59,659 nucleotides of DNA from an uncultured Acidobacteriota bacterium (GCA_903847975.1 CAINFC010000278.1:1-59659), one strand, 5' to 3'; positions 8,908 through 55,187 are shown, counted from the first letter of the stretch. Notes: generated from the sequence alone by a model not told the origin. A program made the numbers and translations.

Positions 8908-10050
8908 ATGGAAATTTTAAGTTTAAGCGGAAGAGTTCTGTTGGCCGAAGGCGCCTGCCGGGAAGCGACGCTCTGGGTGCAGGGCGGAAAGGTGGTCCAG
9001 ATCCAGTCGGGGCTGGATCCCAAGGCGGATATCTGCACGGCGGGTTTCATTTCTCCCGGATGGATCGACCTGCAGCTCAACGGCGCCTACGGATTCGATT
9101 TCTCCACCGATGGCCGCACAGTGGCGGAGGTTGCCTGGCGATTGCCGGAAACCGGAGTGACCGCGTTTCTGCCCACGGTGATCACCTCTCCATGGGAGGC
9201 CTATCCGTGCCGGCTTCGGGAAATCGGAGAAGCCCTGCGTCTTTCCGGAGGTGCCCGGCCGCTGGGGGTCCACCTGGAAGGGCCCTATCTCAATCCGGTA
9301 AAAAAAGGGGCGCATACCGCAGGATTTCTACGGCCTCCTGACGCCGTTGAAGCGCTCGGCCTTGCGGACGAATCGGTCCGCCTGGTCACCCTGGCGCCCG
9401 AACTTCCGGGTGCCCTGGATGTGATCCGAAGACTGAAATCGCGCGGCATCGTCGTCAGCGCCGGCCATTCCAACGCTACCTGCGAGGAGGCCGATGGCGG
9501 CTTCGAAGCGGGAATCGGTTTTGTGACCCACCTGTTCAATGCCATGAGCGGCCTGGGCCACCGGGATCCGGGTCTGCCGGGCGCCGCCCTGGCCTCTGGC
9601 GTGCCCTGCGGGTTCATCGCCGATGGGGTGCACACGCATCCGTCGGTCATGAAACTGGTCTACCGCGCCAAAGGACCGGATGGAATCGTCCTGGTAACCG
9701 ATGCCATGGAAGCCATGGGAATGCCTGCGGGAAAATTCAGGCTCAGCGATCGCGAGGTCCAAGTCGACCGCCATTCGGCGCGGCTGGCCGATGGAACCCT
9801 GGCGGGGAGCATCCTGACCATGGACCAGGCGGTGCGCAACGCGGTGCGCTTTACCGGCTGTTTGCCGGCCGAGGCGTTTCGCATGGCATCCACCACCCCG
9901 GCGCAGGTTCTTGGGCTGGAGGACAAGGGAAAAATTTTCATCGGGGCGGATGCCGACCTGGTAGTGCTCGACGAAGCGCTGGTGGTTACCCATACGTTCG
10001 TACAGGGAAATCCTGTATTCGGCAGCGGACAGCACCCGAATGCAACGTAG
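8908..10050 (+). CDS. nagA: N-acetylglucosamine-6-phosphate deacetylase
   Basis: 380 residues, the usual length. It removes acetate from GlcNAc-6-phosphate to give glucosamine-6-phosphate in amino-sugar catabolism and cell-wall recycling in the cytoplasm. Amidohydrolase-superfamily motifs are present: WIDLQLNGAYG at the first strand (no HxH pair, as in the E. coli-type enzyme), the metal-binding Glu in HLEGPYLNP, His in SAGHSNA, His in THLFNAM, and the catalytic Asp in LVTDAMEAMG. No nagB or amino-sugar transporter lies beside it. Confident family assignment. Confidence 0.93.
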   Translation: MEILSLSGRVLLAEGACREATLWVQGGKVVQIQSGLDPKADICTAGFISPGWIDLQLNGAYGFDFSTDGRTVAEVAWRLPETGVTAFLPTVITSPWEAYPCRLREIGEALRLSGGARPLGVHLEGPYLNPVKKGAHTAGFLRPPDAVEALGLADESVRLVTLAPELPGALDVIRRLKSRGIVVSAGHSNATCEEADGGFEAGIGFVTHLFNAMSGLGHRDPGLPGAALASGVPCGFIADGVHTHPSVMKLVYRAKGPDGIVLVTDAMEAMGMPAGKFRLSDREVQVDRHSARLADGTLAGSILTMDQAVRNAVRFTGCLPAEAFRMASTTPAQVLGLEDKGKIFIGADADLVVLDEALVVTHTFVQGNPVFGSGQHPNAT

Positions 10051-10142
10051 CTTGATTTTCGCCCTTTGCGTTCTTTTCACGGCGGCTGCCTGAAGGACAG
10101 TCCGTTTCCTTCCAGGAAGAAACCGGAGACAGGATAGAATAG

Positions 10143-11033
10143 ATGGCCTACGGAGGCGAACTGGCAGCCCTTCTGGCCGCCTGCACCTGGACCGGAAGCT
10201 CGCTGGCCTTTGCCGGCGCCACCACGCGGGTCGGATCGGTCTATGTCAACGTGGTGCGGCTGTTTGCGGCGGCCGTTTTCCTGGCCCTTACCGTTTTCGT
10301 CATGAAGATCGGCACCGAGATCTCCTACGCCCAATTGCTGTTTCTGTCCGTCAGCGGCCTGATCGGGCTGGTTTTCGGTGACGCCTTCCTGTTCAAATCC
10401 TATGAATACAACAGCGCCCGCATCAGTGCGCTGGTCATGTCGGCCGCTCCCGCCCTGACGGCGGTGATGGCCTACTTTATTTTCCATGAAACGCTCTCCG
10501 TCTGGGCCATTCTCGGAATGGCGGTTACCCTGGGTGGGATCACCCTGGTTGTCCTGGAGAGGAAGGAAAAATCGGACCGGCACCATCCCGTATCGATGAA
10601 GGGGGTCTTTTATGCCTTCCTTGGAGCTCTGGGGCAGGCCGGCGGACTGATATTCGCCAAGAATGCGTTCACCATGGGGCCGATCAACGGGTTTTATGCA
10701 ACGCTCATCCGGGTGCTGGCAGCGATCCTGGTGATCACTCCGCTTCATTATTTTGGTGGACATTTCCAGCACCCCATCCGGGTTTTTGCCGGGAATCGCC
10801 GCGCCTTCTGGTTTACCATGCTGGGGGCGGTTCTCGGTCCCTTTCTCGGGGTTACCTTGAGCCTGGTCTCCATTTCCCTGACCAGCCTGGCCATTGCCGC
10901 CACCCTGATGGCCCTGGTCCCCATCCTGATGCTGCCTGCCGTCTGGATCCTTTTCCGGGAGCACCTGACCTGGCGGGCGGTGCTGGGAGCCTTTGTCGCC
11001 GTGGCCGGAGTGGCCATCCTTTTTTTGCGTTGA
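10143..11033 (+). CDS. EamA/DMT-family transporter
   Basis: 296 residues with about ten hydrophobic helices arranged as two EamA halves (roughly 1-140 and 155-296), typical of the drug/metabolite transporter superfamily in the inner membrane. Conserved features include the early AACTWTGSSLAF helix and the GVFYAFLGALGQAGG start of the second half. The substrate cannot be told from sequence; members export amino acids, nucleotides or metabolites. It lies about 90 bases after nagA on the same strand and may share its transcript. Confidence 0.85.
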   Translation: MAYGGELAALLAACTWTGSSLAFAGATTRVGSVYVNVVRLFAAAVFLALTVFVMKIGTEISYAQLLFLSVSGLIGLVFGDAFLFKSYEYNSARISALVMSAAPALTAVMAYFIFHETLSVWAILGMAVTLGGITLVVLERKEKSDRHHPVSMKGVFYAFLGALGQAGGLIFAKNAFTMGPINGFYATLIRVLAAILVITPLHYFGGHFQHPIRVFAGNRRAFWFTMLGAVLGPFLGVTLSLVSISLTSLAIAATLMALVPILMLPAVWILFREHLTWRAVLGAFVAVAGVAILFLR

Positions 11034-51331: not shown

Positions 51332-51634
51332 TCTTTTTTCCTTCCACCGGAAAAACAACAGGCCGGCAGGCTAAGAGAGTCTTTCCTTTGGGATGACTTG
51401 CTTGTCATGGCTTTGGCTGCGTCGGACGGCTTAGGTCTTTTGCCTCTTCCTGCCGCTTAGAAAGTTTACGACGCGCCCTCCGCGAAAGCAAGGAACCGGT
51501 GGGTCCCGGAGATGCAAACGGTCCTTCGGGAGGAAAATCTGCAATGGCTGACAAAAATTGGCTGCGGCAGGGTTAAAATACCAATGGTTTGGTCCTTAAT
51601 TGTACCTGCAGAAATACACATGGCGGAAAACCTT
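51332..51634. other. Divergent control region between the sugar-ABC operon and the ThiF gene
   Basis: About 300 bases without a credible gene, separating a leftward operon from a rightward gene. The right half is AT-richer. I see no promoter with good spacing and no clear terminator; it should hold control elements for both sides. Confidence 0.4.
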
Positions 51635-52546
51635 ATGGCAACAGACAATCCGAATCAACCTTTCTTTGACGTCTCTCTTTTCGATCCCCGACAGGCTTTC
51701 AGCAGAAACCTGGGATGGATTACCAATAGAGAATTCGAGCTTCTCCGCACGTTTAAAATAGCGATTGCCGGAATGGGAGGGGTGGGCGGACATCATGCCG
51801 AAGTTCTGGCGCGGCTGGGAATTTCCCGGTTTCACTTATCCGATTTCGATACGTTTGAAATCGGCAACTTCAACCGTCAGAACGCGGCGCAGATATCCAA
51901 TGTTGGAAGGCCGAAAGTCGAGGTGATTGCCCAAAAACTTCTCGACATTAATCCCAGGGCGCAAATCACCTGTTTTTCCCAGGGAGTCACAGCCGAAAAC
52001 CTGGATTCCTTTCTGGAAGGAGTGGATTTGTATTGCGACGGCCTCGATTTTTTTGTTCTCGAGCTTCGTGAAAAACTGTTCCGTGCCCTGCGGAACAAGA
52101 ATATTCCGGGAATTACCGTTGCTCCCATCGGGGTTGGGGCCGCCATGCTGGTCTTCGACTCCCGCTCCATGTCCTTCGATGAGTATTTCGGCATGTATCG
52201 GACCCGGGACACAGTGGAGAAAGCCATCCGGTTTCTGGTCGGGCTTGCTCCCTCCCTACAGCATGCCAGATATATAGCTGAAATTCGAAAATCGGACTTT
52301 CAAAATCGAAAAACGCCCTCCCTGCCGATGGGCTGTTACCTGAGCGCGGGGGTACTGGGAGGCCTGGCTCTCAAGATTCTGCTGAAAAGGGGCAAAGTAT
52401 ATACCGCACCGCATTCCCTGCATTTCGATGTTTACAACAACGCTTTTGTGCATAAGAAAATTTACTTCGGACACCGCAATCCGCTGCAACAAATAAAGCG
52501 GTATCTGGTGAAAAAGCAGCTGCTGGCTTCTTCCCCGCAAAAGTAG
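51635..52546 (+). CDS. ThiF/MoeB/E1-like adenylating enzyme
   Basis: 303 residues from the ATG at 51635 (another ATG is at 51620). The E1-like Rossmann core has IAGMGGVGGHHAEVLARLG near residue 45, LSDFDTFEIGNFNRQ with the ATP-contacting Asp and Arg, the Lys in VGRPKVEVIAQKL, and YCDGLDFF for the Mg Asp. ThiF and MoeB carry CxxC zinc pairs that are absent here, and no catalytic Cys is obvious. The late MSFDEYFGM and TAPHSLHFDVYNN mark the clade seen with nitroreductase-like partners, such as the mycobacterial Rv1355c/MoeY type. It adenylates a carboxylate of an unknown protein, peptide or small molecule. Confidence 0.85.
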   Translation: MATDNPNQPFFDVSLFDPRQAFSRNLGWITNREFELLRTFKIAIAGMGGVGGHHAEVLARLGISRFHLSDFDTFEIGNFNRQNAAQISNVGRPKVEVIAQKLLDINPRAQITCFSQGVTAENLDSFLEGVDLYCDGLDFFVLELREKLFRALRNKNIPGITVAPIGVGAAMLVFDSRSMSFDEYFGMYRTRDTVEKAIRFLVGLAPSLQHARYIAEIRKSDFQNRKTPSLPMGCYLSAGVLGGLALKILLKRGKVYTAPHSLHFDVYNNAFVHKKIYFGHRNPLQQIKRYLVKKQLLASSPQK

Positions 52547-52556
52547 CAGCCGGGAT

Positions 52557-53684
52557 TCACGGCCGGGCGTCAGGAGGGGGGGATCGGCGTCCGACGCGGC
52601 ACGTCGGCGGAGGCGCATAGCCGAAGCGCAGGATAAAACCGGGCGTCCCGCTCACCCCGATGCCGGCAAGAAAATGACGGAAATCCTGCAGCAGCTTGGG
52701 GGCATGCAAACGCCGCAGGGATTCCACCAGCTGCGCCGTTCCGCAGGTCATGCCGAAATGGAGCCCAACCAGCGACATCATCGGCTGGGCCGCCAGACCG
52801 GCCTGGGTGAGGGCCAGCCAGGCGCGCTGCGCGACGCGCCCGACCTGAATCTCCGGATAAGGCTCGCCTTCTTTTACTGCCACCAGGCATAGACCGGAAG
52901 AGCTTCGTACCAGTTTGCGGGTATGGGCGCCCAGCATCTGGGCGCCTCGTAAAATCCGAAAAAGAAGGTCGGGCATGTATCGCATGGCGCGGAGCGCCAG
53001 CTGGTCGGCATAGGCGATTTCCAGGGACCCCAGGGAGAGTCCTTCGTCGGCCGGGGCGTCCGGCGGCAAATCAAAACGGATATTGTGCAGGAACGCCTGG
53101 CGCATCGATGGCTCGCGGAACATGGACGCGTCCCCCCGGGCGATCAGGTTTGCCAACATTTCCTGTTGGTCGGGAGCGGTGATCCAGTGAACCTGCAGGC
53201 CCGGCACCGCGGGCAGGGCTTGCTCCAGGTGCGACCGCAGCTCTGCCGGAAGCGAACGGAACTGATAAACGTGACGGTTGGTGACCCGCTCGCGCAGGAT
53301 CCGTTCCACCGCCAGGGCATTTTCGGGGGCTTTTTGCACCCCCGGCCGCACCCTGGCGATCAGAATTCGCCGGTCCCATCGGTCGGGGGCCTGCATTTCC
53401 ACCATGGTTGACCATCCGAGTGCACCCGCGAGGGTGCAGACATTCTCCAGGGCGGCACCGCAGGCGATCAGGGACATGCGCTGCCCGGCATTGATGGTGG
53501 ACGGATCCCGCTCCGGGTCTAAAAATATTTCTATGGCTTCCGCTTCGGCACGGTAGAGGATATCCCACGGCTGGGTATTATCCCCGGAAGGGGCCAGGAC
53601 GGCCGCGCGAATCAGCCGGCTGAACTCATCGTTCACAATTCGTACCCGGGAAAAACAGGCTTTAACATCTGGTAATATTACCAT
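52557..53684 (-). CDS. Nitroreductase-family flavoprotein-like protein
   Basis: 375 residues. The N-terminal APSGDNTQPWDI motif binds the FMN phosphate in this family, followed by an Acg/nitroreductase-like helical core, LTQAGLAAQPMMSLVGLHFG and a terminal FGYAPPPTCRVGRR. This branch is longer than classical nitroreductases and groups with those fused or adjacent to ThiF domains. It converges on the ThiF gene (10-base gap) and is divergent from the HATPase-GNAT gene. No Shine-Dalgarno precedes ATG 53684; a GTG at 53636 is an alternative start. Confidence 0.82.
   Translation of the reverse strand: MVILPDVKACFSRVRIVNDEFSRLIRAAVLAPSGDNTQPWDILYRAEAEAIEIFLDPERDPSTINAGQRMSLIACGAALENVCTLAGALGWSTMVEMQAPDRWDRRILIARVRPGVQKAPENALAVERILRERVTNRHVYQFRSLPAELRSHLEQALPAVPGLQVHWITAPDQQEMLANLIARGDASMFREPSMRQAFLHNIRFDLPPDAPADEGLSLGSLEIAYADQLALRAMRYMPDLLFRILRGAQMLGAHTRKLVRSSSGLCLVAVKEGEPYPEIQVGRVAQRAWLALTQAGLAAQPMMSLVGLHFGMTCGTAQLVESLRRLHAPKLLQDFRHFLAGIGVSGTPGFILRFGYAPPPTCRVGRRSPPPDARP
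53671..53682. promoter_or_regulatory. Perfect 12-bp palindrome between divergent starts
   Basis: GGTAATATTACC is its own reverse complement. It covers codons 1-5 of the nitroreductase reading from 53684 and lies 36 bases before ATG 53718. If the nitroreductase really starts at the downstream GTG, the palindrome would be a plausible operator in the shared control region. Confidence 0.4.
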
Positions 53685-53717
53685 GTTGATTTTAATCTTA
53701 CTATCGGAGGCCAGACC

Positions 53718-55187
53718 ATGGAGTGGATCCTAATCTGTGATTACAATCCCCGCTGTCAGACCGTTGTGCAGGGGTTCGTGGAAGAATCGGCCAAGGCCCT
53801 GGGCGCTTCCCAACAGGAAGTCTACGCCCTGGGAATTGCGGCCGAAGAGGCCGTGGTTCATATACTGGAAAACGTGCCGGCCGAAATGTGCACCGAAAGA
53901 TTTGAGGTCCGCTGTACGGTTCTTGCGGACGGCATCGAATTCCGGTTTGGAAACCTGGGCCGCCCGATCAATCTCCAGGCACTTCCGGAATACAACAACG
54001 ATCGGCCCGAGGAGTCCATCGAGGGGCTTCCTTTTTTCCTGATGAGCCGCATGGTCGACCGCTTCGAATTCGTCAACCAGGGCAAGGAAGGCTGGTGCAC
54101 GGTCATATATAAACGGCTGGCCGGGCTGGGTGCCGATGCGCAGATGTCAAAAAGGGAGGAAGAGGCGGATCTTTCCTCCCGGGCCGCCGAAAAGCTGCAG
54201 GTTCGACGGGCCCATGCGGACGACGCACCAGCCATCACCCAGCTGGCCTACCAGACCTACCACTATACGTATCCGCGGGATATCATTTACTATCCCGACC
54301 GTCTTTCCGAAGCGCTTCGAAAAGAGGAAATCGTCTCTTTCGTGGCTCTCAACCCGATGGGAACCCTGATCGGTCAGATGGCGCTCTTTGCGGATCCCGG
54401 CTGCCGGAAGATTGCGGAAATCGGGGCCCTCATGGTCCATCCGGACTACCGGCGAAGCCGGGGGTTGCTCCATATTATCCGGTCCACACAGCATTTTGTT
54501 ACGGCAGCCGATACTTCCTTCGATTTTTTCACCACCAATCAAATTACCGAGCACCTGACCGCACAGAGGATGTCGGGCCTGTTCCATTTTCACCCCATGG
54601 CGCTGCGGCTTTCTTTTTTCGATGGCCTGGTAGCCGATTCGAAAAGCTCTTCGCACGGGCGCATTAACCTGCTTTACCTGGTCTATCTGCCGAAACCGTT
54701 GGGGCCAATCCGATTGCACGTTCCGGCCCGTCATGCTTCCTTCGCCCGGACTTTGTTTGCTGAAACGAGTTATGAGCCGGATTGGGAGCCGGTAGAGGAA
54801 TCATGGCATAACCAGGAACCCACGCGGCTGGGGGTTCATATCCAGACGGAACAGGCCGTGGGTTTTCTCCGCATCTCACAGTCCGGACCGGATCTGGCCG
54901 ATGCCGTTCGCCGGGCGGTGTCCCAGCTGCTGTTCGAAGATCTGAAAACGATTTACGTCACCATACCCCTCTGGGAACCGGGCGGCGCGGTTCTGGATGA
55001 GAGCGCCGACGGTATGCAGCTGTTTTTCAGCGGCTTTGTTGCCGAAAGCCCGGAGCGCTGGGCTCTCCTCTACACACGCATCATCCGGCCCCGGTTGGAT
55101 TTCAGCCGGATTGAGATGCTTCATCCGCTGGCCGTCGCCTTAAAGGAGTACGTGCAATCCTGTTACCAGAGGGCGGTGCCGGACTGA
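53718..55187 (+). CDS. HATPase-like/GNAT fusion protein
   Basis: 489 residues; GGAGG sits about 8 bases before the ATG. Residues 1-140 resemble an RsbW/anti-sigma HATPase domain (LGIAAEEAVVHILENV, FEVRCTVLADGIEFRFGN, GLPFFLMSRMVDRFEFV), but the Mg-binding Asn of the N-box is replaced and the G-box is poor. Residues about 160-330 are a GNAT acetyltransferase (VRRAHADDAPAITQLAYQTY, IAEIGALMVHPDYRRSRGLLHII). The C-terminal 150 residues resemble a second acyltransferase-like fold. It is divergent from the nitroreductase and next to the ThiF gene; a joint modification pathway is inference. Confidence 0.8.
   Translation: MEWILICDYNPRCQTVVQGFVEESAKALGASQQEVYALGIAAEEAVVHILENVPAEMCTERFEVRCTVLADGIEFRFGNLGRPINLQALPEYNNDRPEESIEGLPFFLMSRMVDRFEFVNQGKEGWCTVIYKRLAGLGADAQMSKREEEADLSSRAAEKLQVRRAHADDAPAITQLAYQTYHYTYPRDIIYYPDRLSEALRKEEIVSFVALNPMGTLIGQMALFADPGCRKIAEIGALMVHPDYRRSRGLLHIIRSTQHFVTAADTSFDFFTTNQITEHLTAQRMSGLFHFHPMALRLSFFDGLVADSKSSSHGRINLLYLVYLPKPLGPIRLHVPARHASFARTLFAETSYEPDWEPVEESWHNQEPTRLGVHIQTEQAVGFLRISQSGPDLADAVRRAVSQLLFEDLKTIYVTIPLWEPGGAVLDESADGMQLFFSGFVAESPERWALLYTRIIRPRLDFSRIEMLHPLAVALKEYVQSCYQRAVPD

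Follow-up and report, generated by a model that had tools for sequence, protein, structure and literature searches.

We analysed a 59,659-nucleotide stretch of DNA from an uncultured Acidobacteriota bacterium (GCA_903847975.1 CAINFC010000278.1:1-59659; hereafter the window) for the nature of three adjacent genes, which encode a ThiF (E1-like) protein, a nitroreductase-like flavin-dependent oxidase (FDO), and a fusion of HATPase and GNAT domains. An initial annotation of the window had grouped these genes as a candidate modification system. The open reading frames (ORFs) were found where it had placed them, and the families were confirmed with Pfam. The locus contains the following features.

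51635..52546, + strand: gene for a predicted ThiF/E1-like ATP-dependent cyclase of the PRK08223 type, 303 aa; alternative starts at 51512 and 51620
52557..53684, − strand: gene for a nitroreductase-superfamily FDO, 375 aa; PF00881, Rv1355c family
53685..53717, no strand: divergent gap of 33 bp separating the start codons of the FDO and HATPase-GNAT genes, read directly; candidate shared regulatory region
53718..55187, + strand: gene for the HATPase-GNAT fusion, PF13581 and PF00583, with a putative role in the pathway

The strands alternate along the locus (ThiF +, FDO −, HATPase-GNAT +), and the three genes are therefore not one operon. The ThiF and FDO genes converge, with 10 bp separating their stop codons, and the FDO and HATPase-GNAT genes diverge from the 33-bp gap, in which a consensus promoter was not detected. 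The reading frame of the ThiF gene is open from 51512. Both the GC content of this gene (50.7%) and its GC content at third codon positions (GC3, 57%) lie clearly below those of its neighbors, the other genes measured having a GC3 of 68–79%, which suggests that the ThiF gene was acquired horizontally and separately from the genes around it.

The ThiF protein matches Pfam family PF00899 (E=1.4e-36) and the NCBIfam model PRK08223 (NF006077), the latter with 370 bits compared to a cut-off of 266, and aligns to the ThiF portion of the fused ThiF-nitroreductase models PRK14851 and PRK14852 (NCBIfam). Its relatives are 37–55% identical to it. The adenylation residues, assigned by motif spacing to those used by ThiF and MoeB, are retained (R24, D70, D72, N80, R81, Q82, K94, and D138 in the 303-aa form). 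The best solved relative is TcdA (3e-15), an E1-like enzyme in which a small carboxylate is activated for ring closure. The protein contains three cysteines with no CxxC pair, and residue 237 is a Ser where most relatives have a Cys, so that the description of an E1-like enzyme lacking zinc and catalytic cysteines holds.

The FDO matches the Pfam Nitroreductase family (PF00881, 7.3e-8) and scores 154 bits with the Rv1355c family, 151 bits with PRK14851, and 144 bits with the Acg family of NCBIfam. It covers the nitroreductase portion of the same fused models that the ThiF protein matches, and its best match in the PDB is Acg (2ymv, 1.5e-8). The sequence PSGDNxQPW and further invariant positions are common to the window FDO and to fused or adjacent FDOs from other loci. 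The window FDO is predicted to be a desaturase of an N-acyl amino acid or of its oxazolone.

Proteins of these families act together in the OxzAB pathway of Pseudoalteromonas rubra, and in the TyzACB and TrzAS pathways of Mycobacterium tuberculosis, where an N-acyltransferase first makes an N-acyl aromatic amino acid, a ThiF protein with ATP then yields the cyclised N-acyl amino acid, and an FDO with O2 finally carries out a desaturation to produce acyl-oxazolones (PMC10404671, PMC12856293). Cyclisation and desaturation of N-acyl amino acids have been shown experimentally for Rv1355c, TyzB/TyzC, and OxzB (PMC10404671, PMC12856293), Rv1355c being TrzS, the N-acyl-tryptophan cyclase/desaturase of M. 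tuberculosis (PMC12856293). Dehydrotyrosine lipids are likewise tied to a set of ThiF, nitroreductase, and N-acyl amino acid synthase (PMC12479983). Two of the components that mark an N-acyl oxazolone cluster are present in the window, these being a ThiF-like cyclase with its adenylation residues and, adjacent to it, an FDO of the Acg/Rv1355c type.

We consider that the ThiF protein and the FDO of the window probably serve as cyclase and oxidase in an oxazolone-type pathway acting on N-acyl amino acids, which is a known kind of biosynthesis. The ThiF protein would adenylate the carboxylate of a fatty acyl N-acyl amino acid, for example one of Tyr, Phe, or Trp, and attack of the amide oxygen upon the acyl-adenylate would close a five-membered oxazolone. 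The FDO would then pass two electrons from the alpha-beta bond to O2, the predicted product being an acyl-oxazolone, or an N-acyl dehydro-amino acid if the ring is then opened. This assignment would place a ThiF-FDO pair of a kind left unassigned until 2021–2025 in a lineage for which we found no oxazolone lipid in the literature.

Support for the pathway also comes from the neighborhoods of other ThiF genes. We took a census of 13 loci with a PRK08223-type ThiF outside the window, comprising three loci from the same phylum, one from Nitrosomonas, two plasmid loci, and seven from additional genomes in the phylum to which Nitrosomonas belongs. A synthase of N-acyl amino acids, defined as a match to FeeM (PF21926) or exosort_acyl (TIGR03694), was fused to the ThiF or located within 10 kb of it at 11 of the 13 loci (L017, L029, L034/L036, L035, L045, L046, L047, L048, L049, L050, and L051). 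Chance expectation for such nearness is approximately 1–3%, given one to four synthase genes in a genome of 2.5–3.8 Mb. At L031 the synthase lies on a different contig, and none was found for L030. An FDO is fused or adjacent to the ThiF at four loci: the two genes overlap in Nitrosomonas (L017:9992-11954), are fused at L031, form a contiguous synthase-ThiF-FDO run at L045:198-3012, and are joined with FeeM in a single FeeM-ThiF-FDO protein (L035:9062-12031, WP_011787321) encoded beside an XrtA/PEP-CTERM operon. PEP-CTERM or exosortase genes are also present at many other census loci.

Several additional observations were made at these loci. WP_011787321, which holds a whole predicted oxazolone pathway in a single protein, is annotated merely as ThiF family. 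PRK08223-type ThiF proteins and exosort_acyl/FeeM synthases recur together in PEP-CTERM/exosortase neighborhoods (L046–L051, L029, and L030), which suggests a broader pathway, linked to exosortase systems, for modifying N-acyl amino acids; at these loci the FDO is often missing and UbiE-like methyltransferases are sometimes present. The closest ThiF found, at 55% identity, is encoded on the Bdellovibrio plasmid pBdHAGR2 (L034:10677-12852, L036:4766-6013), where its neighbors are an ABC transporter and a FeeM-type synthase left unannotated, an arrangement partly shared with the Nitrosomonas locus.

The census also bears on the candidate modification system of the initial annotation and on a peptide or protein substrate or a ubiquitin-like partner for it, none of which it supports. 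On such a reading the ThiF protein would activate the C-terminus of a peptide or ubiquitin-like protein, the nitroreductase would oxidise a heterocycle in the manner of McbC, and the GNAT would acylate it. E1-like and nitroreductase-like enzymes do co-occur in pathways for ribosomally synthesised and post-translationally modified peptides (RiPPs), but the ThiF relatives accompany N-acyl amino acid synthases, not peptides or ubiquitin-like proteins, the FDO belongs to the Acg/Rv1355c type, and no YcaO is present. The intergenic gaps of the locus contain no convincing short ORF or ubiquitin-like protein, and the initial annotation had likewise seen no ubiquitin-like or precursor peptide; no beta-grasp candidate was seen there, and the ThiF protein has none of the zinc CxxC pairs associated with activation of ThiS- or MoaD-type partners. 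Matches to E1-E2 systems in PADLOC are weak, partial, and confined to the adenylation core. We rejected the RiPP reading because no precursor-like ORF occurs in the gaps, and the ubiquitin-like/defense reading because of the nature of the PADLOC matches; peptide or protein modification as a whole appears very improbable. The earlier proposal of adenylation followed by oxidation, with Rv1355c as nearest analogue, stands in outline for a metabolite but not for a peptide.

Several findings weigh against a complete oxazolone pathway in this organism. The genome to which the window belongs (8.13 Mb, 99% complete) contains no match to FeeM (PF21926), to exosort_acyl (TIGR03694), or to a profile built from ten census synthases, although this last profile does detect synthases in three positive-control genomes (G113, G074, and G302). 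Because all three profiles come back empty, the defining partner of the ThiF-FDO pair is missing or unrecognised. Nor was a FeeM/OxzA/TyzA-like N-acyltransferase found nearby, in a search that did not include the divergent type represented by TyzA alone. The ThiF and FDO genes are convergent rather than in an operon, and the FDO is just 18–28% identical to the other FDOs compared. The reaction, the substrate, and the product, as well as the role of the HATPase-GNAT protein, are matters that we infer rather than observe. The genome may encode a very divergent synthase. The acyltransferase step would in any case not be of the usual FeeM/exosort_acyl/LuxI-like type, and acyl donation in this lineage must depend on a synthase that escaped recognition or on an unusual HATPase-GNAT protein. 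The adjacent HATPase-GNAT protein would be the best local candidate for the acyltransferase step or for its control.

The HATPase-GNAT protein matches HATPase_c_2 (PF13581, 7.5e-7) and Acetyltransf_1 (PF00583, 3.6e-5), and can be divided into an RsbW-like HATPase domain (residues ~1–137), a GNAT domain (~157–300), and a C-terminal region of unassigned fold (~300–489). A profile of the family (A1) aligns with RsbW (6m36) over residues 6–137 (1.7e-16), the HATPase fold thus being that of the RsbW/SpoIIAB-type anti-sigma kinases. The residues that serve these kinases for Mg-ATP are absent: the N-box Asn is replaced by His (EEAVVHI) and the G1-box (DxG) Asp by Asn (FGNLGRP), changes that L020, the nearest relative, shares with the window protein; the N-box Asn is intact only in L021–L023. 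Because both residues are replaced, RsbW-type ATP hydrolysis or kinase activity of the window protein is doubtful. Among solved structures the GNAT part comes nearest to an amino-acid acetyltransferase (3e0k), a weak match (E=0.0018) aligned through HPDYRRSRGLL, and its sole NCBIfam matches are weak ones to N-acetylglutamate synthases (0.015–0.027). Its closest, though weak, resemblance is to ArgA, an amino-acid N-acetyltransferase. A second GNAT domain in the C-terminal half was rejected for lack of self-similarity in hhalign. A single-sequence AlphaFold2 model of the protein had a pLDDT (predicted local distance difference test) of 35 and was discarded.

The HATPase-GNAT family is rare, with relatives in seven other genomes across the samples searched (L020 at 35% identity to the window protein, the others at 16–23%) and none on viral contigs or plasmids. 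We found no description of the fusion in the literature, in agreement with the earlier remark that it was not known to have been described. Neither ThiF nor FDO was found beside homologues in the seven genomes, several of whose contigs (including L020 and L021) are short. Co-occurrence across genomes, the absence of which the initial annotation had named as refuting a three-protein system, was recovered for ThiF and FDO but not for the HATPase-GNAT protein, whose membership as a third component is putative.

Neighboring genes of the relatives include SpoIIE, STAS, MFS, and AMP-binding genes at L022, and MatE, RimK-like ATP-grasp, and GH3 genes at L020. At two loci (L028:9114-17273 and L024:9236-14514) the HATPase-GNAT gene heads a conserved run of an MFS transporter and two ligase-like genes, to which L028 adds LuxE and LuxC; this run appears to be an undescribed small-molecule cluster. 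In the stretch L027:2013-15000 the window genome itself has a second HATPase-GNAT-like gene, with a GNAT-like relative at 9365-10423, near ketosynthase, HMG-CoA-synthase-like, and enoyl-CoA hydratase genes that resemble a polyketide beta-branching cassette.

One explanation for the missing synthase is that the HATPase-GNAT protein is the N-acyltransferase of the pathway and replaces the FeeM/exosort_acyl synthase, its non-kinase RsbW-like domain binding a nucleotide or a STAS partner as a switch. Its gene adjoins that of the FDO much as tyzA adjoins tyzCB on the opposite strand (PMC10404671), the window genome has no recognisable synthase, the GNAT part has the weak likeness to ArgA described above, and the clusters of its relatives hold acyl-activating enzymes (AMP-binding, LuxE, LuxC, or RimK-like ATP-grasp with GH3). 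Opposed to this are the comparison of profile A1 with the synthase profile (A2), which gave an hhalign probability of 1.4% and was accompanied by no FeeM or exosort_acyl match in Pfam or NCBIfam, the lack of homologues beside ThiF or FDO elsewhere, and the loss of the acyl-CoA loop in the nearest relative. We regard the replacement as possible but somewhat unlikely. The broader proposal is a little less likely again, namely that the family as a whole consists of regulated acyltransferases of a new kind, each an ArgA-like GNAT with a non-catalytic anti-sigma-kinase domain, found phylum-wide in small-molecule acylation clusters and here taking the place of a FeeM-type synthase. If the HATPase-GNAT protein does carry out the acyl-donating step, the synthesis of N-acyl amino acid lipids would be directly coupled to a domain of the partner-switching type, and there would be a first functional handle on the uncharacterised LuxE/LuxC and GH3/ATP-grasp clusters.

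The chances are about even that the HATPase-GNAT protein is instead an unrelated partner-switching or stress regulator and a chance neighbor, in which case the N-acyl amino acids would be made by an unrecognised synthase encoded at another site in the genome or would come from an external source. The relative at L022 with an intact N-box follows SpoIIE and STAS genes, and the alternating strands, the odd GC content of the ThiF gene alone, and the lack of any conserved linkage to ThiF suggest that the genes have separate histories. On the other hand, with both nucleotide-binding residues replaced, an RsbW-like kinase is unlikely, and Pfam finds no STAS or SpoIIE gene adjacent in the window. Pfam and NCBIfam identify genes for a sugar ABC transporter and a GDPD protein on the left flank. 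Those on the right flank encode an ECF sigma factor, a VTT protein, and a Ser/Thr kinase. None of these has an obvious link to the three genes.

We compared the window locus with the closest known systems. In trzAS (Rv1356c-Rv1355c; N-acyl tryptazolone, M. tuberculosis; PMC12856293) there is likewise a ThiF cyclase with an FDO, and the Rv1355c family model picks up both proteins of the window, but the two are fused in TrzS whereas the window has two convergent genes, and a TrzA-type acyltransferase was not found here. A comparable arrangement is that of tyzACB (Rv2336, Rv2338c, Rv2337c; N-acyl tyrazolone; PMC10404671), with separate ThiF and FDO genes and an adjoining acyltransferase on the opposite strand, although tyzB and tyzC are co-directional and TyzA is FeeM/BjaI-like by fold, where the window has a HATPase-GNAT fusion. 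The oxzAB system of P. rubra (de Rond et al. 2021, cited in PMC10404671), likened here by its description, also pairs a ThiF with a nitroreductase, acting on N-acyl Tyr/Phe, but there the two are fused in one protein, OxzB, and the acyltransferase is OxzA. The PRK14852 triple fusion from a plasmid of Nitratidesulfovibrio vulgaris (WP_011787321) has ThiF and FDO parts from the families seen in the window, with respective identities of ~39% and 28% to the window ThiF and FDO, differing in its fused N-terminal FeeM synthase and in its XrtA/PEP-CTERM operon, which the window lacks. Clusters for N-acyl dehydrotyrosines (stieleriacines, thalassotalic and kyonggic acids; PMC12479983) combine ThiF and nitroreductase with N-acyl amino acid chemistry, the synthase there being NasY and a HATPase-GNAT protein not being reported. 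The HATPase-GNAT proteins elsewhere in the phylum (L020–L028) have the same domain order as the window protein but keep the company of SpoIIE, STAS, MFS, AMP-binding, LuxE, and LuxC or of RimK, GH3, and MatE genes in place of ThiF and FDO. The probable chemistry of the ThiF-FDO pair is of a known kind, and the part of the window locus that could be new is the HATPase-GNAT protein in the position of the acyltransferase.

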